Source: Candidatus Nitrosocaldus tengchongensis
GTDB lineage: Archaea > Thermoproteota > Nitrososphaeria > Nitrososphaerales > Nitrosocaldaceae
Assembly (NCBI GenBank): GCA_013538675.1
Contig: JACAFJ010000002.1
Span: 1-64,000 of the forward strand
DNA length: 64,000 bases
Direction of reading: 5' to 3'
The translations under genes and the position numbers were made by a program. The notes beneath the pieces are model-generated. The model was not told where the DNA came from, searched no databases, and was given only the letters and a program-made list of their open reading frames with translations. This document shows positions 8,271 through 60,563 of this stretch, one piece after another (the stretch's first letter is position 1; the number at the start of each line of letters is the position of its first letter).

Positions 8271-8567
8271 TTAGTATTCTACAACATCCAGTCTACCATA
8301 TCTACCTATATTTAGTGTATTCTCTCCCTTGAACTCTTTAGTATATCCATTTGTTATAGAGATCTTTGAACCCTCTCTAACCATATCTATCTGCTCATTC
8401 CAGAGCGTTAACTTTATCCTACCTGAGTCATCCTGGATTACACAGTCTGCAACCCTTGCCTTACTACCATCCTTCAGCCTAACCTCTCTAGCCTCTGATA
8501 CACTAACAACCTCTGCAGCATCTATAGATACTCTGCTCATCCCACCCCTTATATCTGATATTCGCAT
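8271..8567 (-). CDS. OB-fold single-stranded nucleic-acid-binding protein (RPA-like)
   Basis: 98 aa, one OB-fold with the pattern of archaeal RPA/SSB domains (AEVVSVSEAREVRLKDGSK, CVIQDDSGRIKLTLWNEQ, VREGSKISITNGYTKEFKGE). It presumably binds ssDNA. The ATG at 8567 is chosen because TTTATTATAA lies about 25-30 nt upstream on the minus strand. A longer frame would run back into the tRNA-Leu region and shows no family similarity. Confidence 0.85.
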   Translation of the reverse strand: MRISDIRGGMSRVSIDAAEVVSVSEAREVRLKDGSKARVADCVIQDDSGRIKLTLWNEQIDMVREGSKISITNGYTKEFKGENTLNIGRYGRLDVVEY

Positions 8568-8627
8568 ATGTAGATGGCAAGAGTAACACATTATAATAAA
8601 GGTTACCTTCCTTACATATGATAGCAA

Positions 8628-8760
8628 GCGGGGGTAGCAGAGCCTGGTCAAATGCGCGGGACTCAAGATCTATCTATCTCTTATCTGCAAGGATAGAGTG
8701 CCTAGTCGGTGGGTGATCCCGTCCCTTAGGGGTTCGTGGGTTCAAATCCCACCCCCCGCA
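8628..8760 (+). tRNA. tRNA-Leu (CAA) with one intron
   Basis: Cloverleaf built by hand. Acceptor GCGGGGG (8628-8634) pairs with CCCCCGC (8753-8759); discriminator A is at 8760. Anticodon stem CGGGA/TCCCG encloses loop CTCAAGA, anticodon CAA. A long variable arm (TCCC-TTA-GGGG) is typical of class II Leu. The T arm is GTGGG-TTCAAAT-CCCAC. A 48-nt intron (about 8668-8715) sits at canonical position 37/38. The 3' CCA is not encoded. Exact splice points are ambiguous by a base or two. Confidence 0.9.
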
Positions 8761-8895
8761 CCTCGCATGTAAGCATGCTAGCATGTTCCACCATCAATCA
8801 ACAACTAGTGTACTCTATACTATAGAGTCTCCAGTATGTACTTATCACTAAATATTTGATATATATTAATAAATAGTAGTAAGATTTACACAAAC

Positions 8896-8906
8896 TTTTT
8901 AAATAA
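8896..8906 (+). promoter_or_regulatory. TATA box upstream of the TrmB leader ORF
   Basis: TTTTTAAATAA ends 19 nt before ATG 8926. It places the transcript start at or near that ATG and well upstream of the TrmB coding region. No other TATA-like element is seen between 8906 and 9048. Confidence 0.65.
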
Positions 8907-8925
8907 ATATGTAATAATTAAAGGT

Positions 8926-9039
8926 ATGAACACAAAGAGTGTAATAGCAAGGGGCAAGGTGGATGGCGTAGAGGGCAAGTATGCATGTGCAGTCACTGCA
9001 GGTAGAGCAGGTGGTGAGGAAGAGGAGGGGGAGGTGTGA
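8926..9039 (+). CDS. Small leader ORF (37 codons) before TrmB
   Basis: ATG 8926 to TGA 9037-9039 encodes 37 residues, beginning MNTKSVIARGKVDGVEGK and ending in an acidic EEEEGEV tail. It lies at leaderless distance from the only visible TATA box. Its stop overlaps the GTG at 9036 that opens the TrmB reading frame (GTGA overlap). No family is recognised. It could be a small protein, or a leader peptide whose translation controls TrmB expression. Confidence 0.5.
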   Translation: MNTKSVIARGKVDGVEGKYACAVTAGRAGGEEEEGEV

Positions 9040-17601: not shown

Positions 17602-18000
17602 ATGGTTATGAACATAAGATTCTCAACCAAAGAGTTGGAGTTCATCAATAAACATGAGGTATGTAGGCTAGCAACATGCTCAGATAACAGACCCCATGTT
17701 GTACCAGTATGCTACATCTTCTTCAACAACCACTTCTACATAGCAACAGATTATCATACAAAGAAGTTCAGTAATATAGCAAGGAATAGGAATGTCTCTC
17801 TAGTTATAGATACGTATAGACCAAACAAGGCTGTGATGGTTGAAGGTATAGCAGAGATAGTAGAGCATGGACAGGAGTTCAACGATGTATACAAGTTATT
17901 CTATGGGAGGTTTGAATGGGTTAGGAGGGAGCCATGGGGTGAAGGGGAAGCACCGTTCATAAAGGTAACTGTAGCAAAGAAGGTATCTTGGGGGTTATGA
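17602..18000 (+). CDS. PPOX-type flavin/F420-binding split-barrel protein
   Basis: 132 aa, pyridoxamine-5'-phosphate-oxidase-like fold: INKHEVCRLATCSDNRPHVV, then FYIATDYHTKKFSNIARNRN and VMVEGIAEIVEHGQEF. Members bind FMN, F420 or haem; the cofactor and substrate cannot be told from sequence. A TATA-like AATTATATATATA lies ~16-25 nt upstream, between tRNA-Ser and ATG 17602 (ATG 17608 is also possible). Confidence 0.85.
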   Translation: MVMNIRFSTKELEFINKHEVCRLATCSDNRPHVVPVCYIFFNNHFYIATDYHTKKFSNIARNRNVSLVIDTYRPNKAVMVEGIAEIVEHGQEFNDVYKLFYGRFEWVRREPWGEGEAPFIKVTVAKKVSWGL

Positions 18001-18001
18001 C

Positions 18002-18010
18002 TTTATATAT
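18002..18010 (+). promoter_or_regulatory. TATA box of the MtrA-like gene
   Basis: TTTATATAT ends 27 nt before ATG 18038, giving the expected spacing for a leaderless transcript of the MtrA-like gene. It begins 2 nt after the stop of the preceding PPOX gene, so the two are probably transcribed separately. Confidence 0.65.
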
Positions 18011-18037
18011 TCCAGTTCGTTTCATCAATACCTGCCT

Positions 18038-18535
18038 ATGGTTAAAAGGTTCCTCTCTGATATCGCTGGGAAGGCATGCGAGTTCATACTCCCAATAAGG
18101 CATGACACCTTCATAGGCAACTCAAACTCTTGCATAGCACTATGCACTCTATCAAGCATTGATCTACTGCTTAGTGCATCTAGGTCTGATCTAATGCAGT
18201 ACATTGCCATTGTTGGTAGACTGCTATCTGAGAATAAGGGTATAGATGCACTTGTAAGATATGTTATAGCAGATAAGAGGAGGGTAAGGTACATGATCAT
18301 TGCTGGCAAGGATTCGAAGGGGCATCTAGCTGGGCAGTCACTCCTTGCCCTCTGGCTCAATGGTATTGATGTTAATGGAAGGATAATAGGCTCAAAGGGT
18401 AAGGATCCAATTCTTACTGTGAGCAAGGATGAGGTTGATGAGTTTAGGGCTAGGATAAACACCATCATAGATATGAGGGATGTTATAGATGTTGGGAGGA
18501 TACGTGAATATGTATTAACAATTATTCAAGAGTGA
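18038..18535 (+). CDS. MtrA-like corrinoid-binding protein
   Basis: 165 aa. It aligns with the cytoplasmic domain of MtrA, the corrinoid subunit of methanogen tetrahydromethanopterin S-methyltransferase: SCIALCTL, LLSENKGIDALVRYVI, IIAGKDSKGHLAGQSLLALW, NGIDVNGRIIGSKGKDPI and RINTIIDMRDVIDVGRI. His96 in KGHLAGQ matches the lower axial cobalt ligand (His84 in the Methanothermobacter protein, from memory). The MtrA membrane anchor is missing, and no other mtr genes are in the window. cobT at 59394 shows cobamide synthesis capacity. It may carry methyl groups on a corrinoid in C1 or methionine metabolism (inference). Confidence 0.82.
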   Translation: MVKRFLSDIAGKACEFILPIRHDTFIGNSNSCIALCTLSSIDLLLSASRSDLMQYIAIVGRLLSENKGIDALVRYVIADKRRVRYMIIAGKDSKGHLAGQSLLALWLNGIDVNGRIIGSKGKDPILTVSKDEVDEFRARINTIIDMRDVIDVGRIREYVLTIIQE

Positions 18536-18589
18536 AAAGTAACGTGGTGAGTACATAAGCCTTAATAATATGTGCATCAATATCCCCAT

Positions 18590-18865
18590 ATGGCTACAGC
18601 ATTCCTGGTACTCTACCAGTTCAAGAGCATGAGCGATGAGGATGCATCCAAGGCAAGCAAAGAATGGAATGAGTTGAAGAAGAACATCCCATCTGGTATA
18701 AGGCTGGTTGGGGAGTATGTTCATGCTTGGGGAACCGAGTATAATGGTTTCCTCATATTTGAGAGCGATGATGCAGACAAGTTCCTTGATTGGTGGCCAA
18801 GCTTCAAGGATAAGATAAGATGGTATGTTACAAAGACCCATACTATAGTGGCTAGGAAGCGTTGA
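18590..18865 (+). CDS. DUF3303-like small protein
   Basis: 91 aa: TAFLVLYQFKSMSDEDASKA, RLVGEYVHAWGTEYNGFLIF, ESDDADKFLDWWPSFKDKIR. The pattern fits the DUF3303 ferredoxin-like (Dabb-like) fold. Function unknown. ATG 18590 is preferred over GTG 18572 because a TATA-like CTTAATAATAT lies ~20-28 nt upstream of it and would overlap the longer start. Confidence 0.75.
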   Translation: MATAFLVLYQFKSMSDEDASKASKEWNELKKNIPSGIRLVGEYVHAWGTEYNGFLIFESDDADKFLDWWPSFKDKIRWYVTKTHTIVARKR

Positions 18866-21361: not shown

Positions 21362-23347
21362 ATGGAAGTAGTGAATAGGTTGAGCTGGGTTACAGGAGGA
21401 CCGCAAGGAAGTGGTGTTGATACAGCAGCAAATGTATTTGCAAAGGCATGTGCACTTGGAGGTCTATACCTCTTCGGCAAGAGGGAGTACCACTCTAACA
21501 TAAAGGGTGAGCATAGTTACTTCAGCGTACATGTTAGTGATGAGCCAGTTAGAGCCCATGTAGATCCTATAGATATGCTAGTTGTATTCGATGTAGAGAC
21601 TTTATTCAGGCATGCACTGTATGTTGTAAAGGATGGTATCATCGTTTACGACTCCTCCATAGTAGAAGGTAGCATAGATGATGTACAAACCCTTGAGAGG
21701 AGGAGGAGGGATGAGTTGAGATCTATACTTGCTAGCCACTCACTAGAGGGTACAGCGGAAGGCATGCTCAAGTTGGTTGAGATGAATGGTGTGAGGCTCT
21801 ACAGCATACCCTGCCATGATCTTCTCCAGGATATAGCAGGTAAGAGGAACGATCCATCATTGAGCAAGATGGTTAGGATGATAAACATAATGATGGTAGC
21901 ATCCTCGCTAGCACTACTGGAGTATGATCAGCAACTCCTTGTAGATGCTATAAGGTACACATTCAGAGCAAAGAAGAGCATTGCAGATCTCAACGCCGAT
22001 GCTGCACTCTACACCTACAACTACACCAAGGCAAAGTACGCAAATAGCGAGGAGGATGGTATAGGGTATAGGTTGGTTGCTAGAGAGTCTAGAGATGATA
22101 TGCTCCTAATGCAAGGGAACCAAGCAGTTGCTCTAGGGAAGATGGTTGCTGGTTGTAGGTTTCAGACCTATTATCCTATAACCCCAGCATCCGATGAATC
22201 TGAGTTCCTTGAGGCTAACGAGTTGCTTGATGGTAAGGGTTCTGTAGTGGTTGTTCAGACAGAGGATGAGATAGCAGCAATAGCAATGGCTATAGGTGCA
22301 GGGCTATCAGGTGCAAGATCATCAACGAGTACATCTGGTCCAGGGTTCTCACTCATGGCTGAGGCACTAGGCTGGGCTGGTATCAATGAGGTGCCAGTGG
22401 TAATAACACTCTACCAGAGGGCAGGTCCAAGCACTGGGCTACCTACTAGGCATGAGCAAGGGGATCTGCTGTTTGCTATACATGCTGGGCATGGTGAGTT
22501 CCCAAGAATAGTAATAGCATCTGGGGATGTTGAGGAGGCATTCTATGATGCGATAAGGGCATTCAACTATGCTGAGCGCTATCAGATGCCAGTCATACAT
22601 GTGGTGGATAAGGCTATAGCAAATAGCGTTATGGTATGCAAGGAGTTCAACCCTGCTCTGGTAAGGATAGATAGAGGATTGCTATTAGACTCTGTTACCA
22701 GTATTACTGCTACAGCAGCAACAGCAACTACAGCAGAAGAAGAAGCGGTAGTAGAAGGTAGCAGGTATTTAAGGTTCAGGTTCACAGAAGATGGTATATC
22801 GCCAAGGATAAGGCTTGGTACAAAGGATGCTGTATTCTGGAATACTGGGGATGAGCATGATGAACTAGGGCATATAACTGAGGATCCAGATCTAAGGATA
22901 AAGATGATGGATAAGCGTATGAGCAAACTAGATCTCATACTTGAGAGGTTGAGTTATGAGGAGCAGGCAATGGTATATGGCTATGAGTCAGATGCTACCG
23001 TGATAAGCTGGGGTTCAACCAAGGGAGCAATACTTGATGCTATAGAGATGCTCAAGGCTAGGGATGGTATAGATATGAACTTCGTTCAGGTACGTTTACT
23101 CCATCCATTCCCTACAGCAAGGGTAGCATCACTCCTTGAAGGGACCAGACTGCTCATAGATGTTGAGATGAACTACTCTGCCCAACTAGCAAAGCTCTTG
23201 AGGGCTAACCTGCAGAGGGATGCTGACTATCATGTCGTGAAGTACAATGGTAGGCCTATGTCATCTAGCGAGGTCTATGAGGCACTGAAGGGTATAGTAA
23301 GAGGGGGTGTAAGAAGCAAGAGGGTGGTGTTAAGGCATGGTGTCTAG
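21362..23347 (+). CDS. korA: 2-oxoacid:ferredoxin oxidoreductase, fused gamma-alpha subunit
   Basis: 661 aa. The N-terminal gamma domain ([40 protein letters not shown]) is followed from about residue 245 by the alpha pyrimidine-binding domain ([60 protein letters not shown]). With KorB it oxidises 2-oxoglutarate or another 2-oxoacid to the acyl-CoA and reduces ferredoxin. An Ala/Thr/Glu-rich insert (~residues 447-462) is encoded by GCA/ACA triplets. The 3' end overlaps korB by 11 nt. Confidence 0.95.
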
Positions 23348-25424
23348 GCAATTCAAGTTGGCAGATTACAAGACCGATGTGCACAATGACTGGTGCCCTG
23401 GTTGTTTGATAGGGGATACCTTAGTGCTCTCAAACCCATCGGTGAAGCAGATCAAGGATATAGTGCCTGGGGATGTTGTGCTTAACGCAGCAGGCGAGTA
23501 CAGTAGGGTAGCACTTGTAATAAAGCACCATCATAAAGGACCAATGTATAGGATAAGGATTAAGTGCTTTGGAGAGATAGTTGCAACGCCAGAGCATCAG
23601 TTTATTGCAGTTAAGAGGCTCAGGAGGAGAATGCACAACTCCTCCTTTGTTGAGGAGAGGATACAGGCAGCAGATCTCAGGGTTGGTGATTACCTTGTAT
23701 ACCCAATACTCAGTAGAGTTGTGGATGCTGAGTATATGAATGTAGAGTACAGTCTAAAGCATAAAGATACTAGAAGCAAACACCTACCCTCTAGGGTGTT
23801 AGTCGATGGGGATCTCTTGAGGCTTGTAGGTTACTATATAGCAAAGGGTAGCGTACATAACAGATCTGTGATCTTTACATTCAGTAGTGATGAGGCAGGA
23901 TTAGTAGATGACGCCATTTCACTCATGGATAAGATATTTGGAGTTAAGGGTAAGGTGAACCGTAAAGATGTAAAACATAGCATAGATGTTGTATTCTACT
24001 CATCCCATCTTGCTGAGTTCTTTGCTTATAAGTTCGGCTCCAGTGCTGAAGATAAGCGTATACCGCATGAGTTCATGCTACTCCCAAGAGAGAAGCAGAG
24101 GAACCTTATAATGGGGTTGTGGAAGGGCGATGGCTACTTCTCCTCATCCAAGGCAGGTTATGCAACTATCTCTAAAGTGCTTGCTGAGCAGGTGAAGATC
24201 CTGCTCCTAAGGCAGGGGATAGTACCAATAGTTGTACATGAACCTTCACATGGTATGCATAAGAATGCATACAGGTTATACATAAGCTTCTGGAGAGATT
24301 ACAACCTACTAGCAGAGATTGTAGGTGTAGATAAGCGCAAATTAGCAGGAGGTAGAAGGCGTACGATAGTGTTTAGAGATAATAGGTTATATCTCCCAAT
24401 ATCTAAGATAGAGATGTTCGATTATGATGGCGATGTTTATGATCTCACCGTGGATGATCCATTACACACATTCGTGACTAATATTACAGCATCAAGTAAC
24501 TGTGGAGACTTTGCCATCCTCAATGCAATACAGATGGCACTTGCTGATATGCAGGTTGAGAGGCACAGGGCAGTTATATTCTCTGGCATAGGATGCTCTG
24601 GCAAGACTCCTCACTATGTGAATGTGTATGGTGTGCACACACTCCATGGTAGAGTGCTCCCATTTGCCATTGGTGCAAAACTTGCAAACCCATCGCTCGA
24701 GGTTATAGCAGTTGGTGGGGATGGAGATGGTTATGGTATAGGGGCAGGGCACTTTGTTAATGCTGGGAGGAGGAATGTAGATCTAACCTACATAGTATTC
24801 AACAACGCTGTATATGGGCTTACTAAAGGGCAGGCATCACCAACGCTCAAACTTGGTCTGAAGACCAAATCCCTTCCAAAGCCAAACATAAATCAGGGTA
24901 TAAACCCTGTGATGATGACACTAGCAGCAGGATACACGTTCATTGCTAGAGCATATGCGTATGATGTTAAGCATCTCAAGGATATAATAGTAAGAGCAGT
25001 AAGGCATAGAGGGCTAGCATTGGTTGATGTACTCCAACCATGCCCAACATACAATGATATATACACTAAGGAGTGGTTCTCAGGCCTTGACAGGGTTGAT
25101 CCAGCAACTGGTAAGGCAATGCCTAGGGTATACAAGTTGGAGGATCAGGGATATGATCCTGTTGTACACAACTCTGATGATGAGGATGAACTTAACGCTA
25201 AGATTATACAGGCTATAACCAAGTCTAGGGAGTGGGGGGATAGGATACCTGTAGGCATATTCTACCAGAACGAGCATATACCAGTGTATGAGGAGAGGAT
25301 AAGTAACAGGATACCTGATTACCTGAGCAATCCTCCAGCATTCCAGAGGATAGATGATGGTAACGGCAATCCTTATGCAGATATAAGAAGGTTACTGGAT
25401 GAGTTCAGGGTTGGTACGCACTGA
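23337..25424 (+). CDS. korB: 2-oxoacid:ferredoxin oxidoreductase beta subunit with intein
   Basis: 695-aa precursor, of which about 329 aa are extein. The TPP motif is [19 protein letters not shown] with [15 protein letters not shown]; further conserved parts are [20 protein letters not shown] and [13 protein letters not shown]. The N-terminal Fe-S ligand motif CPGCGDF is split: CPG is encoded before 23403 and CGDF after 24500, with an intein between. Splicing restores [15 protein letters not shown], so the enzyme should be inactive until splicing occurs. The gene overlaps korA and forms a two-gene operon. Confidence 0.95.
23403..24500 (+). other. Intein (366 aa) in KorB, with LAGLIDADG endonuclease domain
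   Basis: The intein starts with Cys ([13 protein letters not shown], block A), has block [10 protein letters not shown] with the TxxH motif, and ends with block [22 protein letters not shown] plus terminal Ser-Asn, followed by Cys(+1). Asn388 and Cys389 are standard splice residues. The usual penultimate His is Ser. A LAGLIDADG domain lies in the middle: motif 1 LVGYYIAKG (residues 163-171) and motif 2 IMGLWKGDG (258-266). Motif 2 keeps its catalytic Asp265, but motif 1 has Lys170 where Asp or Glu is expected, so cleavage is probably lost or impaired. Confidence 0.93.
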
Positions 25425-58756: not shown

Positions 58757-59392
58757 ATGGTTGCTACTAGGTGGATGGCGATCGGCATGATACTCAGACA
58801 GATCAGGGTAGGAAGGATGGCAAACTTTACATACATTGTAGGGGATGAGGCAAGTAAGGTTGTAGCAGTGATAGACCCATCATGGGATCTAGAGATTGTG
58901 TTGGATGAGCTTCGCCATGGCTTAAAGTTAGAGTATATTATAAATACGCATACACACTTCGATCACGTGCTTGGTAATGAGCAGTTGAAGGCTCTAACAG
59001 GTGCAAGGATAGTCATGCACAAGAACTCTCCACTAGATAAGGATGTTGCTGTTGATGATAATGATGTTATAGCATTGGGTAACCTCAAGATGAAGGTTCT
59101 ATACACACCAGGGCACTCAAAGGATAGCATATGTTTACTTGCTGAAAACAAGTTGTTTACAGGGGATACACTCTTCGTTGGCTCCTGCGGTAGGGTAGAT
59201 CTACCTGGAGGGGATGCAGGTGAACTCTATGAGAGCCTCAAGAGGCTTGCCATGCTGGATGAGAGCATAGAGGTATATCCTGGACATGACTATGGCTATG
59301 AGCAGTACTCAACCATAGGCAGGGAGAAGATGAACAATCCTGCAATGAAGGTAAAGAGCAAGGATGAGTTCTTATCAATGGTTGGTGGTTAA
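58757..59392 (+). CDS. MBL-fold metallohydrolase (glyoxalase II-like)
   Basis: 211 aa. THTHFDHVLGNEQLKAL is the HxHxDH zinc motif, followed by YTPGHSKDSICLL, FTGDTLFVGSCGRVDLPGGD and YPGHDYGYEQYS, completing the di-metal site. It resembles hydroxyacylglutathione hydrolase or persulfide dioxygenase relatives; the thiol substrate in an archaeon is unknown. The cobT start follows the stop after 1 nt. Confidence 0.9.
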   Translation: MVATRWMAIGMILRQIRVGRMANFTYIVGDEASKVVAVIDPSWDLEIVLDELRHGLKLEYIINTHTHFDHVLGNEQLKALTGARIVMHKNSPLDKDVAVDDNDVIALGNLKMKVLYTPGHSKDSICLLAENKLFTGDTLFVGSCGRVDLPGGDAGELYESLKRLAMLDESIEVYPGHDYGYEQYSTIGREKMNNPAMKVKSKDEFLSMVGG

Positions 59393-59393
59393 G

Positions 59394-60563
59394 ATGTCTG
59401 ATCATGGTAAGAACAACGATAGCATTGGTAGCGGTATAGGGGTAGCGCTCAACTGGGATAAGGGTATCGAGTTCCTCAACTCTATAGCAGGCAAGGAGTT
59501 CAGGTTCATACTGATAACATCCTACACAGAGACTGCAGAGATAGATGGGATAACAGTTGCTGGAGCAAACAAGGATCTGGTTAGGTTCACGCCTCCAGCA
59601 GATGCTGAGTTCCTCTACTTGGGCAGATGCAAGTGCATAGACTCTGTACCAGCAACACCAGATGGCAAGCCAACACCAGCAGTAATAACCAGAGCAATGC
59701 TCAAACTTGCTGGTATACCATTGAGCATAGTAGACTCTGGCAGTATAGTTAAGCCGATGGTACCTCATTACACCATGGCTGCTACTCATGGAAGGAACAT
59801 AATCCATGGGCATGCAATGAGCAGGGAAGAGGTTGAATACATATACAGGCATAGTCTAGAATTGGGAAGGATACTTGCAAGGAGTGCTGACTGCCTTGTC
59901 ATAGGTGAGAGCATACCTGCTGGTACAACAACAGCACTTGCAGTTATGCTTGCAATGGGCATAGATGCAAGGTTCAGGGTCAGCAGCAGCATGCCTAGTA
60001 ACCCCCATGCGCTGAAGATGAGGGTAGTTGAGGAGGGGATGAGGAATGGTGGAGTTAAGTTTGGTTCCCTCAAGGATAAACCTCTAGATGCCATAGCTAT
60101 GCTTGGAGATCCTATGATGCCATGTACTGCTGGTCTAGCAATAGGGGCTATGGACCATGCCCATGTCATACTTGCTGGAGGAACACAGATGGCAGCAGTT
60201 CTAGCAGTAGTAAGTGCCTTGAGCAGTAGGAGGATGGATAAGATTGCTGTTGCAACAACCTCATACGTTGTTAACGATGCAAGTGCAGATATAAGGTATC
60301 TCGTGAATAGTGTTACTGCTAATTGTTATGGATGCGTACCATTGATCTATGCAGATCCTATGCTTGCACTATCCAGCAAGAATGGACTTAGAGCGTATAC
60401 TGAGGGCTTTGTGAAGGAAGGTGTTGGTGCTGGAGGGGCATGTGTAGCAGCACTAGCAAGGAGTAGGTTCAGGCTTGATGCTAGAGATGTACTCAAGGCA
60501 ATAGAAGTTGAATATGAGCATGCAATAGAGCTCCCTATGAAGACTAGATTATGTTATGAGTAA
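59394..60563 (+). CDS. cobT: Archaeal CobT, nicotinate-nucleotide:base phosphoribosyltransferase
   Basis: 389 aa from ATG 59394. It matches the archaeal CobT (UPF0284) group: ITSYTETAEIDGITVAGANK, SVPATPDGKPTPAVITRAML, VIGESIPAGTTTALAVMLAM, LAGGTQMAAVLAVVSA and GVGAGGACVAALARSR. It activates the lower base for cobamide assembly, so the organism makes or remodels cobalamin. It is adjacent to the MBL gene and possibly co-transcribed with it. Confidence 0.9.
   Translation: MSDHGKNNDSIGSGIGVALNWDKGIEFLNSIAGKEFRFILITSYTETAEIDGITVAGANKDLVRFTPPADAEFLYLGRCKCIDSVPATPDGKPTPAVITRAMLKLAGIPLSIVDSGSIVKPMVPHYTMAATHGRNIIHGHAMSREEVEYIYRHSLELGRILARSADCLVIGESIPAGTTTALAVMLAMGIDARFRVSSSMPSNPHALKMRVVEEGMRNGGVKFGSLKDKPLDAIAMLGDPMMPCTAGLAIGAMDHAHVILAGGTQMAAVLAVVSALSSRRMDKIAVATTSYVVNDASADIRYLVNSVTANCYGCVPLIYADPMLALSSKNGLRAYTEGFVKEGVGAGGACVAALARSRFRLDARDVLKAIEVEYEHAIELPMKTRLCYE

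Follow-up and report, generated by a model that had tools for sequence, protein, structure and literature searches.

What does a putative MtrA-type corrinoid protein do in an archaeon that makes no methane? The question is raised by a gene at positions 18038–18535 of the forward strand in the window, the whole stretch of 64,000 nucleotides. The window comes from an ammonia-oxidising archaeon (AOA) of the Nitrosocaldaceae; amoA is present, and its relatives are named Nitrosocaldus. The original prediction for this DNA described an MtrA-like, soluble protein with the axial histidine, encoded outside a methanogen operon in a cobamide-making non-methanogen. This description stands, while the conservation of the gene throughout AOA and its recurrent partner gene had been overlooked.

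The protein and its predicted cobalt site

The gene encodes a soluble MtrA-domain protein of 165 amino acids that is predicted to bind a corrinoid. It matches the PF04208 MtrA profile at 82.4 bits (E 4e-23; profile positions 13–147 of 173), above the curated gathering cut-off of 25 bits, and it is the only PF04208 gene in the Nitrosocaldus genome. Sequence comparison also matches the MtrA structures 5l8x (E 1.5e-21), 5laa and 8q3v, and identity to solved MtrA structures is 26–36%. An AlphaFold (AF2) model, made from 24 AOA sequences with a mean pLDDT of 87 and with residues 1–20 unsure, resembles apo MtrA of Methanocaldococcus (5l8x; E 3.5e-14, rmsd 1.6 Å, 36% identity) and the cobalamin complex of Methanothermus MtrA (5laa; rmsd 2.2 Å, TM 0.75, 31% identity). 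The coordinates and frame given in the original prediction are correct, and the profile match and the fold bear out its view of the protein as MtrA-like. It had also named the protein free of a membrane anchor, and this too is right: MtrA has about 240 residues, and the chain here stops at residue 165, after the soluble domain and without the C-terminal membrane helix. The protein fails the equivalog cut-off of TIGR01111, the model for MtrA of the Mtr complex (82.5 vs 249 bits). Among five close relatives, dN/dS is 0.12–0.32, which shows purifying selection on mtrA and thus excludes a chance open reading frame. The reading frame on the opposite strand at 18025–18468 is a mirror image of mtrA and was dismissed as a gene.

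It has been established that His84 of MtrA is the axial ligand of the cobalt and is hydrogen-bonded to Glu54, that Asn55 lies on the corrin, and that the nucleotide tail is contacted by Thr53, Asn64 and Tyr18 (Wagner et al., PMC4915002). In the alignment with 5l8x and 5laa, GKDSKGHLAGQ of the AOA protein is placed against GSEVQGHITGQ of MtrA, and His96 (codon at 18323–18325, forward strand) therefore occupies the position of His84. It is the predicted axial cobalt ligand, as had been proposed for the histidine of GHLAGQ. The codons at 18230–18235 (forward strand) specify Glu65 and Asn66, which correspond to Glu54, the hydrogen-bond partner of the histidine, and to Asn55, the corrin contact. 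All three residues are invariant in 48 of 48 AOA sequences. For His and Glu this is stricter than in 29 other MtrA domains, where the counts are 25 for His, 21 for Glu and 28 for Asn.

The remaining equivalents in the Nitrosocaldus protein are S64 for Thr53, Y75 for Asn64 and T24 for Tyr18. Asn64, on the tail side, is present in all 29 of the other MtrA domains compared to 3 of the 48 AOA sequences, most of which have Tyr or Phe instead. Lys52 is replaced by Leu or Phe in AOA, where an Arg (R61) is invariant, and Ile111 of MtrA, a backbone contact, is aligned to D123 of the Nitrosocaldus protein. Judged from the alignment, the AOA protein has a fixed cobalt side and an altered tail side, and the latter may reflect a corrinoid with another lower base, one that is incomplete, or a pocket in which the changes are compensated. 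The predicted fold and the invariant ligand residues make it very likely that the protein binds a corrinoid.

Distribution and gene neighbourhood in AOA

The three main AOA families are represented by 73 genomes from an even draw of the phylum, and 68 of these carry mtrA as a single match, one of them as a decayed copy (G346); such a survey of phylogenetic distribution had been suggested in the original prediction. A search with the AOA alignment added a fourth AOA family, f67. The checked families of the same order that lack amoA also lack mtrA, with the exception of f74 and f75, whose MtrA proteins are 253–257 amino acids long and branch elsewhere in the tree. The AOA sequences form a single clade (support 100/99), and the simplest account is therefore that a lineage-specific protein was gained once, before AOA diversified; the sampled long forms of other Thermoproteota branch apart from this clade. 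Carriage by viruses was considered and rejected, as no relative of mtrA was encoded on the viral contigs of a viral collection. In other Thermoproteota (loci L009, L015, L022, L123 and L124), the MtrA domain is fused at its C-terminal side to a thymidylate-synthase-like domain, and in L012 and L016 it is fused to the pterin-binding DUF4346. In L012 and its close tree relatives L019 and L020, the axial His is changed to Phe and the Glu to Ala.

Several losses of mtrA are seen inside the Nitrosopumilaceae. The gene is absent from four genomes of this family (G174, G366, G082 and G108), and in the first three the flanking DegT and dUTPase_2 genes still adjoin each other. A remnant with 11 stops is found in G299 (L118, 7353–7766) and a broken copy in G346 (L119, near 8560–9014), each still beside the dUTPase_2 gene. 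The mtrA-less Nitrosopumilaceae retain their B12 enzymes, which means that mtrA is not essential for B12 use, and the repeated losses suggest a gene that is useful yet dispensable in some niches.

The gene at 17602–18000 (forward strand), 37 bp upstream of mtrA, encodes a split-barrel protein of 132 amino acids that resembles F420/FMN oxidoreductases of the PNPOx/FDOR-B type (PF01243, E 7.5e-18). A gene of this kind lies just 5′ of mtrA, overlapping it or separated by up to about 40 bp, in the Nitrosocaldaceae (except G431), the Nitrososphaeraceae and f67, an operon-like order in three of four AOA families. The model of the protein (pLDDT 94) matches the F420-binding MSMEG_6526, the biliverdin reductase Rv2074 and the heme-handling HutZ/HupZ, and the split-barrel fold with F420-binding relatives is confirmed on the model (4zky, 5jv4, 5jab). 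It fails the NCBIfam F420 PPOX cut-offs (best TIGR03668, 53 vs 119 bits). AOA probably make F420. F420-dependent biliverdin reductases are known in the split-barrel fold (PMC8498797). In the Nitrosopumilaceae, the split-barrel ortholog lies away from mtrA or is missing, and no clear ortholog was found in the mtrA-bearing genomes G431, G311 and G322. Joint loss of the two genes was dropped as a proof of partnership because the picture is mixed: among the six genomes in which mtrA is absent or decayed, the ortholog is gone in three and kept in three. Between the two genes of the window, at about 18002–18010, there is a TATA-like stretch, TTTATATAT; mtrA may therefore also own a promoter.

Besides this PNPOx-type gene, mtrA has a DUF3303 gene and a phosphate transporter as neighbours in the window. 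The DUF3303 gene (18572–18865, forward strand; PF11746, E 1e-6) lies downstream of mtrA, an adjacency that is limited to Nitrosocaldus (8/8 Nitrosocaldus-type loci). No cob gene is found near mtrA within the window. The cobT noted elsewhere in the window by the original prediction is indeed a CobT-like gene for a nicotinate-nucleotide phosphoribosyltransferase of cobamide synthesis (59364–60563, forward strand; PF02277, E 8.5e-10), unlinked to mtrA at a distance of 41 kb. Across the Nitrososphaeraceae, cobO (PF02572) lies 0.1–1.2 kb from mtrA (0.8–1.2 kb in L063 and L064, directly divergent in L121), and cbiD, cbiG and cbiX lie 4–7 kb downstream of it (Pfam-confirmed in L063), followed by genes that by sequence are cbiC- and cbiA-like. 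A metK gene, also named from sequence, is near mtrA in this family. In the Nitrosopumilaceae and f67, a gene for a corrin-type methylase is found 4–8 kb from mtrA.

Other features of these loci are noted for completeness. In the Nitrosopumilaceae, mtrA and an adjacent DegT aminotransferase gene share a few bases, and in f67 a gene for an ArsA-type ATPase (L116, 7702–8877) stands between DegT and the split-barrel/mtrA pair. A dUTPase_2 protein of 110–118 amino acids is encoded convergently to mtrA at L058 (9696–10040) and at 33 other AOA loci, in the Nitrosopumilaceae and many Nitrososphaeraceae; the arrangement is conserved but seems incidental. Elsewhere in the window (23337–25424, forward strand), an insert of about 366 amino acids that resembles an intein interrupts a 2-oxoacid:ferredoxin oxidoreductase beta subunit after WCPG. 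The insert ends in ASSN, ahead of CGDF, and is missing from the L051 relative, which has 329 amino acids.

Candidate functions

The enzymes that usually accompany corrinoid methyl transfer were looked for. As originally predicted, none of mtrB to mtrH is found among the window neighbours of mtrA, and MtrH is absent from all 27 AOA-order genomes searched. Methyltransferases of the MtaA/UroD type reach the cut-off in 0 of 11 genomes, and the corrinoid activator RACo is present in 0 of 13. Each genome has two PF00809 places, one in MetH and one stand-alone; the stand-alone protein of the Nitrosocaldus genome was discarded as a candidate pterin methyltransferase, since it looks like an ordinary dihydropteroate synthase. 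Methionine synthesis in AOA relies on MetH, which has its own B12 domain and also occurs in mtrA-less genomes, and in the Nitrosocaldaceae on a split MetE (PMC5817080, PMC7819960), for which use of a methyl-pterin is predicted (PMC7857596). On these grounds a methionine synthase was rejected as the partner of MtrA; co-occurrence with MetE and MetH had been suggested as a check in the original prediction.

The best reading, a tentative one, is that the AOA protein carries corrinoids inside the cell, keeping the cobamide and priming it for redox chemistry. In this cytoplasmic protein of the MtrA fold, the His96–Glu65 pair would hold the cobamide in a base-off/His-on state. The product of the upstream gene, the split-barrel F420/FMN oxidoreductase, would reduce or reset the cobalt, and the carrier would present the corrinoid to the cobamide-using steps, namely CobO adenosyltransferase, methylmalonyl-CoA mutase and MetH. 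This task of holding, reducing and handing over is suggested by the gene order and the missing methyl-transfer partners; reduction of the cobalt by the split-barrel neighbour is plausible, and the hand-over to other enzymes is speculative. The storage or sensor protein of the original prediction is compatible with these observations but too loose, as the context of split-barrel oxidoreductase, cobO and cbi genes points to corrinoid handling. Several points count against the preferred reading: mtrA has no cob gene close by in the window, the Nitrosopumilaceae have DegT beside mtrA and the split-barrel ortholog apart or missing, G431, G311 and G322 show no clear ortholog, and several Nitrosopumilaceae use B12 after losing mtrA. 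The retained His–Glu linkage is also typical of methyl transfer.

A further proposal, which we consider rather unlikely, is that AOA have turned the MtrA fold into a device for loading cobamides, in which the F420/FMN split-barrel reductase, the carrier and CobO form a route that reduces, holds and adenosylates. Because the tail pocket is altered and the cobalt side fixed, such a route would possibly act on corrinoids without a finished nucleotide tail. If true, it would be a route not known from other organisms.

The main rival to the corrinoid carrier is the stand-alone methyl carrier of the original prediction, in which a His96-bound cob(I)amide would shuttle methyl groups, without MtrH, between donor and acceptor enzymes not yet recognised. 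The axial His–Glu pair and the Asn, kept in 48/48 AOA sequences, are what cycling between Co(I) and CH3-Co(III) needs, and the fusions to pterin-binding DUF4346 or thymidylate-synthase-like domains in relatives, together with metK near mtrA in the Nitrososphaeraceae, fit a methyl-transfer role. Methanogen MtrA has moreover been predicted to supply the methionine synthase MesA (PMC7857596), and a not-yet-recognised methyltransferase could exist. However, with MtrH, MtaA/UroD-type proteins and RACo missing from the genomes searched, the PF00809 place outside MetH looking ordinary in the Nitrosocaldus genome, and methionine served by MetH or split MetE, a methyl carrier would be left with neither a known donor nor a known acceptor. 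The idea is weakened accordingly and is rather doubtful.

It has also been considered that a cobamide protein might scavenge or sense nitric oxide or nitrite from ammonia oxidation. Presence of mtrA does track amoA across the order, and stressed AOA are reported, by the title of a paper cited in PMC7819960, to accumulate NO2-cobalamin. Yet mtrA has no sensor or regulator partner, is unlinked to nitrogen genes and has been lost from several amoA-positive genomes, which makes such a function very unlikely. That mtrA is a functionless relic of an ancestral Mtr is scarcely credible, for although clean losses and pseudogenes occur in some Nitrosopumilaceae, the gene is under purifying selection, its cobalt site is intact in 48/48 sequences, its partner gene is adjacent in three families, and the checked non-AOA families of the order either have no mtrA or have an unrelated long form.

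Known relatives and biological meaning

The closest known system is the cytoplasmic MtrA homologue of Methanothermus fervidus (5laa), which is likewise a single soluble domain (about 170 amino acids) with the same fold (rmsd 2.2 Å) and a His-Glu-Asn cobalt side. Cytoplasmic MtrA homologues of methanogens are soluble and about 170–180 amino acids long, and the AOA protein fits this class with 165. However, it shares about 31% identity with 5laa, while the cytoplasmic homologues of methanogens are 60–97% identical to membrane MtrA and come from genomes with Mtr. It also differs from the 5laa homologue in mostly lacking the tail-pocket Asn64 and Tyr18, in having a split-barrel oxidoreductase partner, and in the absence of MtrH and the Mtr complex from the AOA genome. 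With MtrA of the Na+-pumping Mtr complex (5l8x soluble domain, 8q3v, 9qts) it shares a homologous corrinoid domain and the axial His; in contrast to that subunit, it has no membrane helix and no MtrB–H neighbours, and it scores far under the equivalog cut-off (82 vs 249 bits).

MtrA and MtrH outside full mtr operons have been described in Bathyarchaeia and in a methanogenic Nitrososphaeria MAG (PMC8407382, PMC6783470). These sets resemble the AOA in having MtrA outside a full operon and differ in that MtrH is present. The MtrA of PMC4084955 is a two-component regulator of the same name and was set aside as a precedent. Stand-alone MtrA homologues in non-methanogens are already known, and the AOA-wide pattern may be new: no description of MtrA in AOA was found in the literature searched, which is weak evidence of novelty, as most subscription journals and supplements lie outside it.

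Matches to "mtrA" in metagenomes need not indicate methane metabolism. A conserved, unassigned corrinoid-type protein in nearly all sampled AOA, without a methanogenic partner, would be a missing piece of how AOA use or deliver B12. These abundant archaea make no methane, and their MtrA-type protein would probably serve their own B12 handling.
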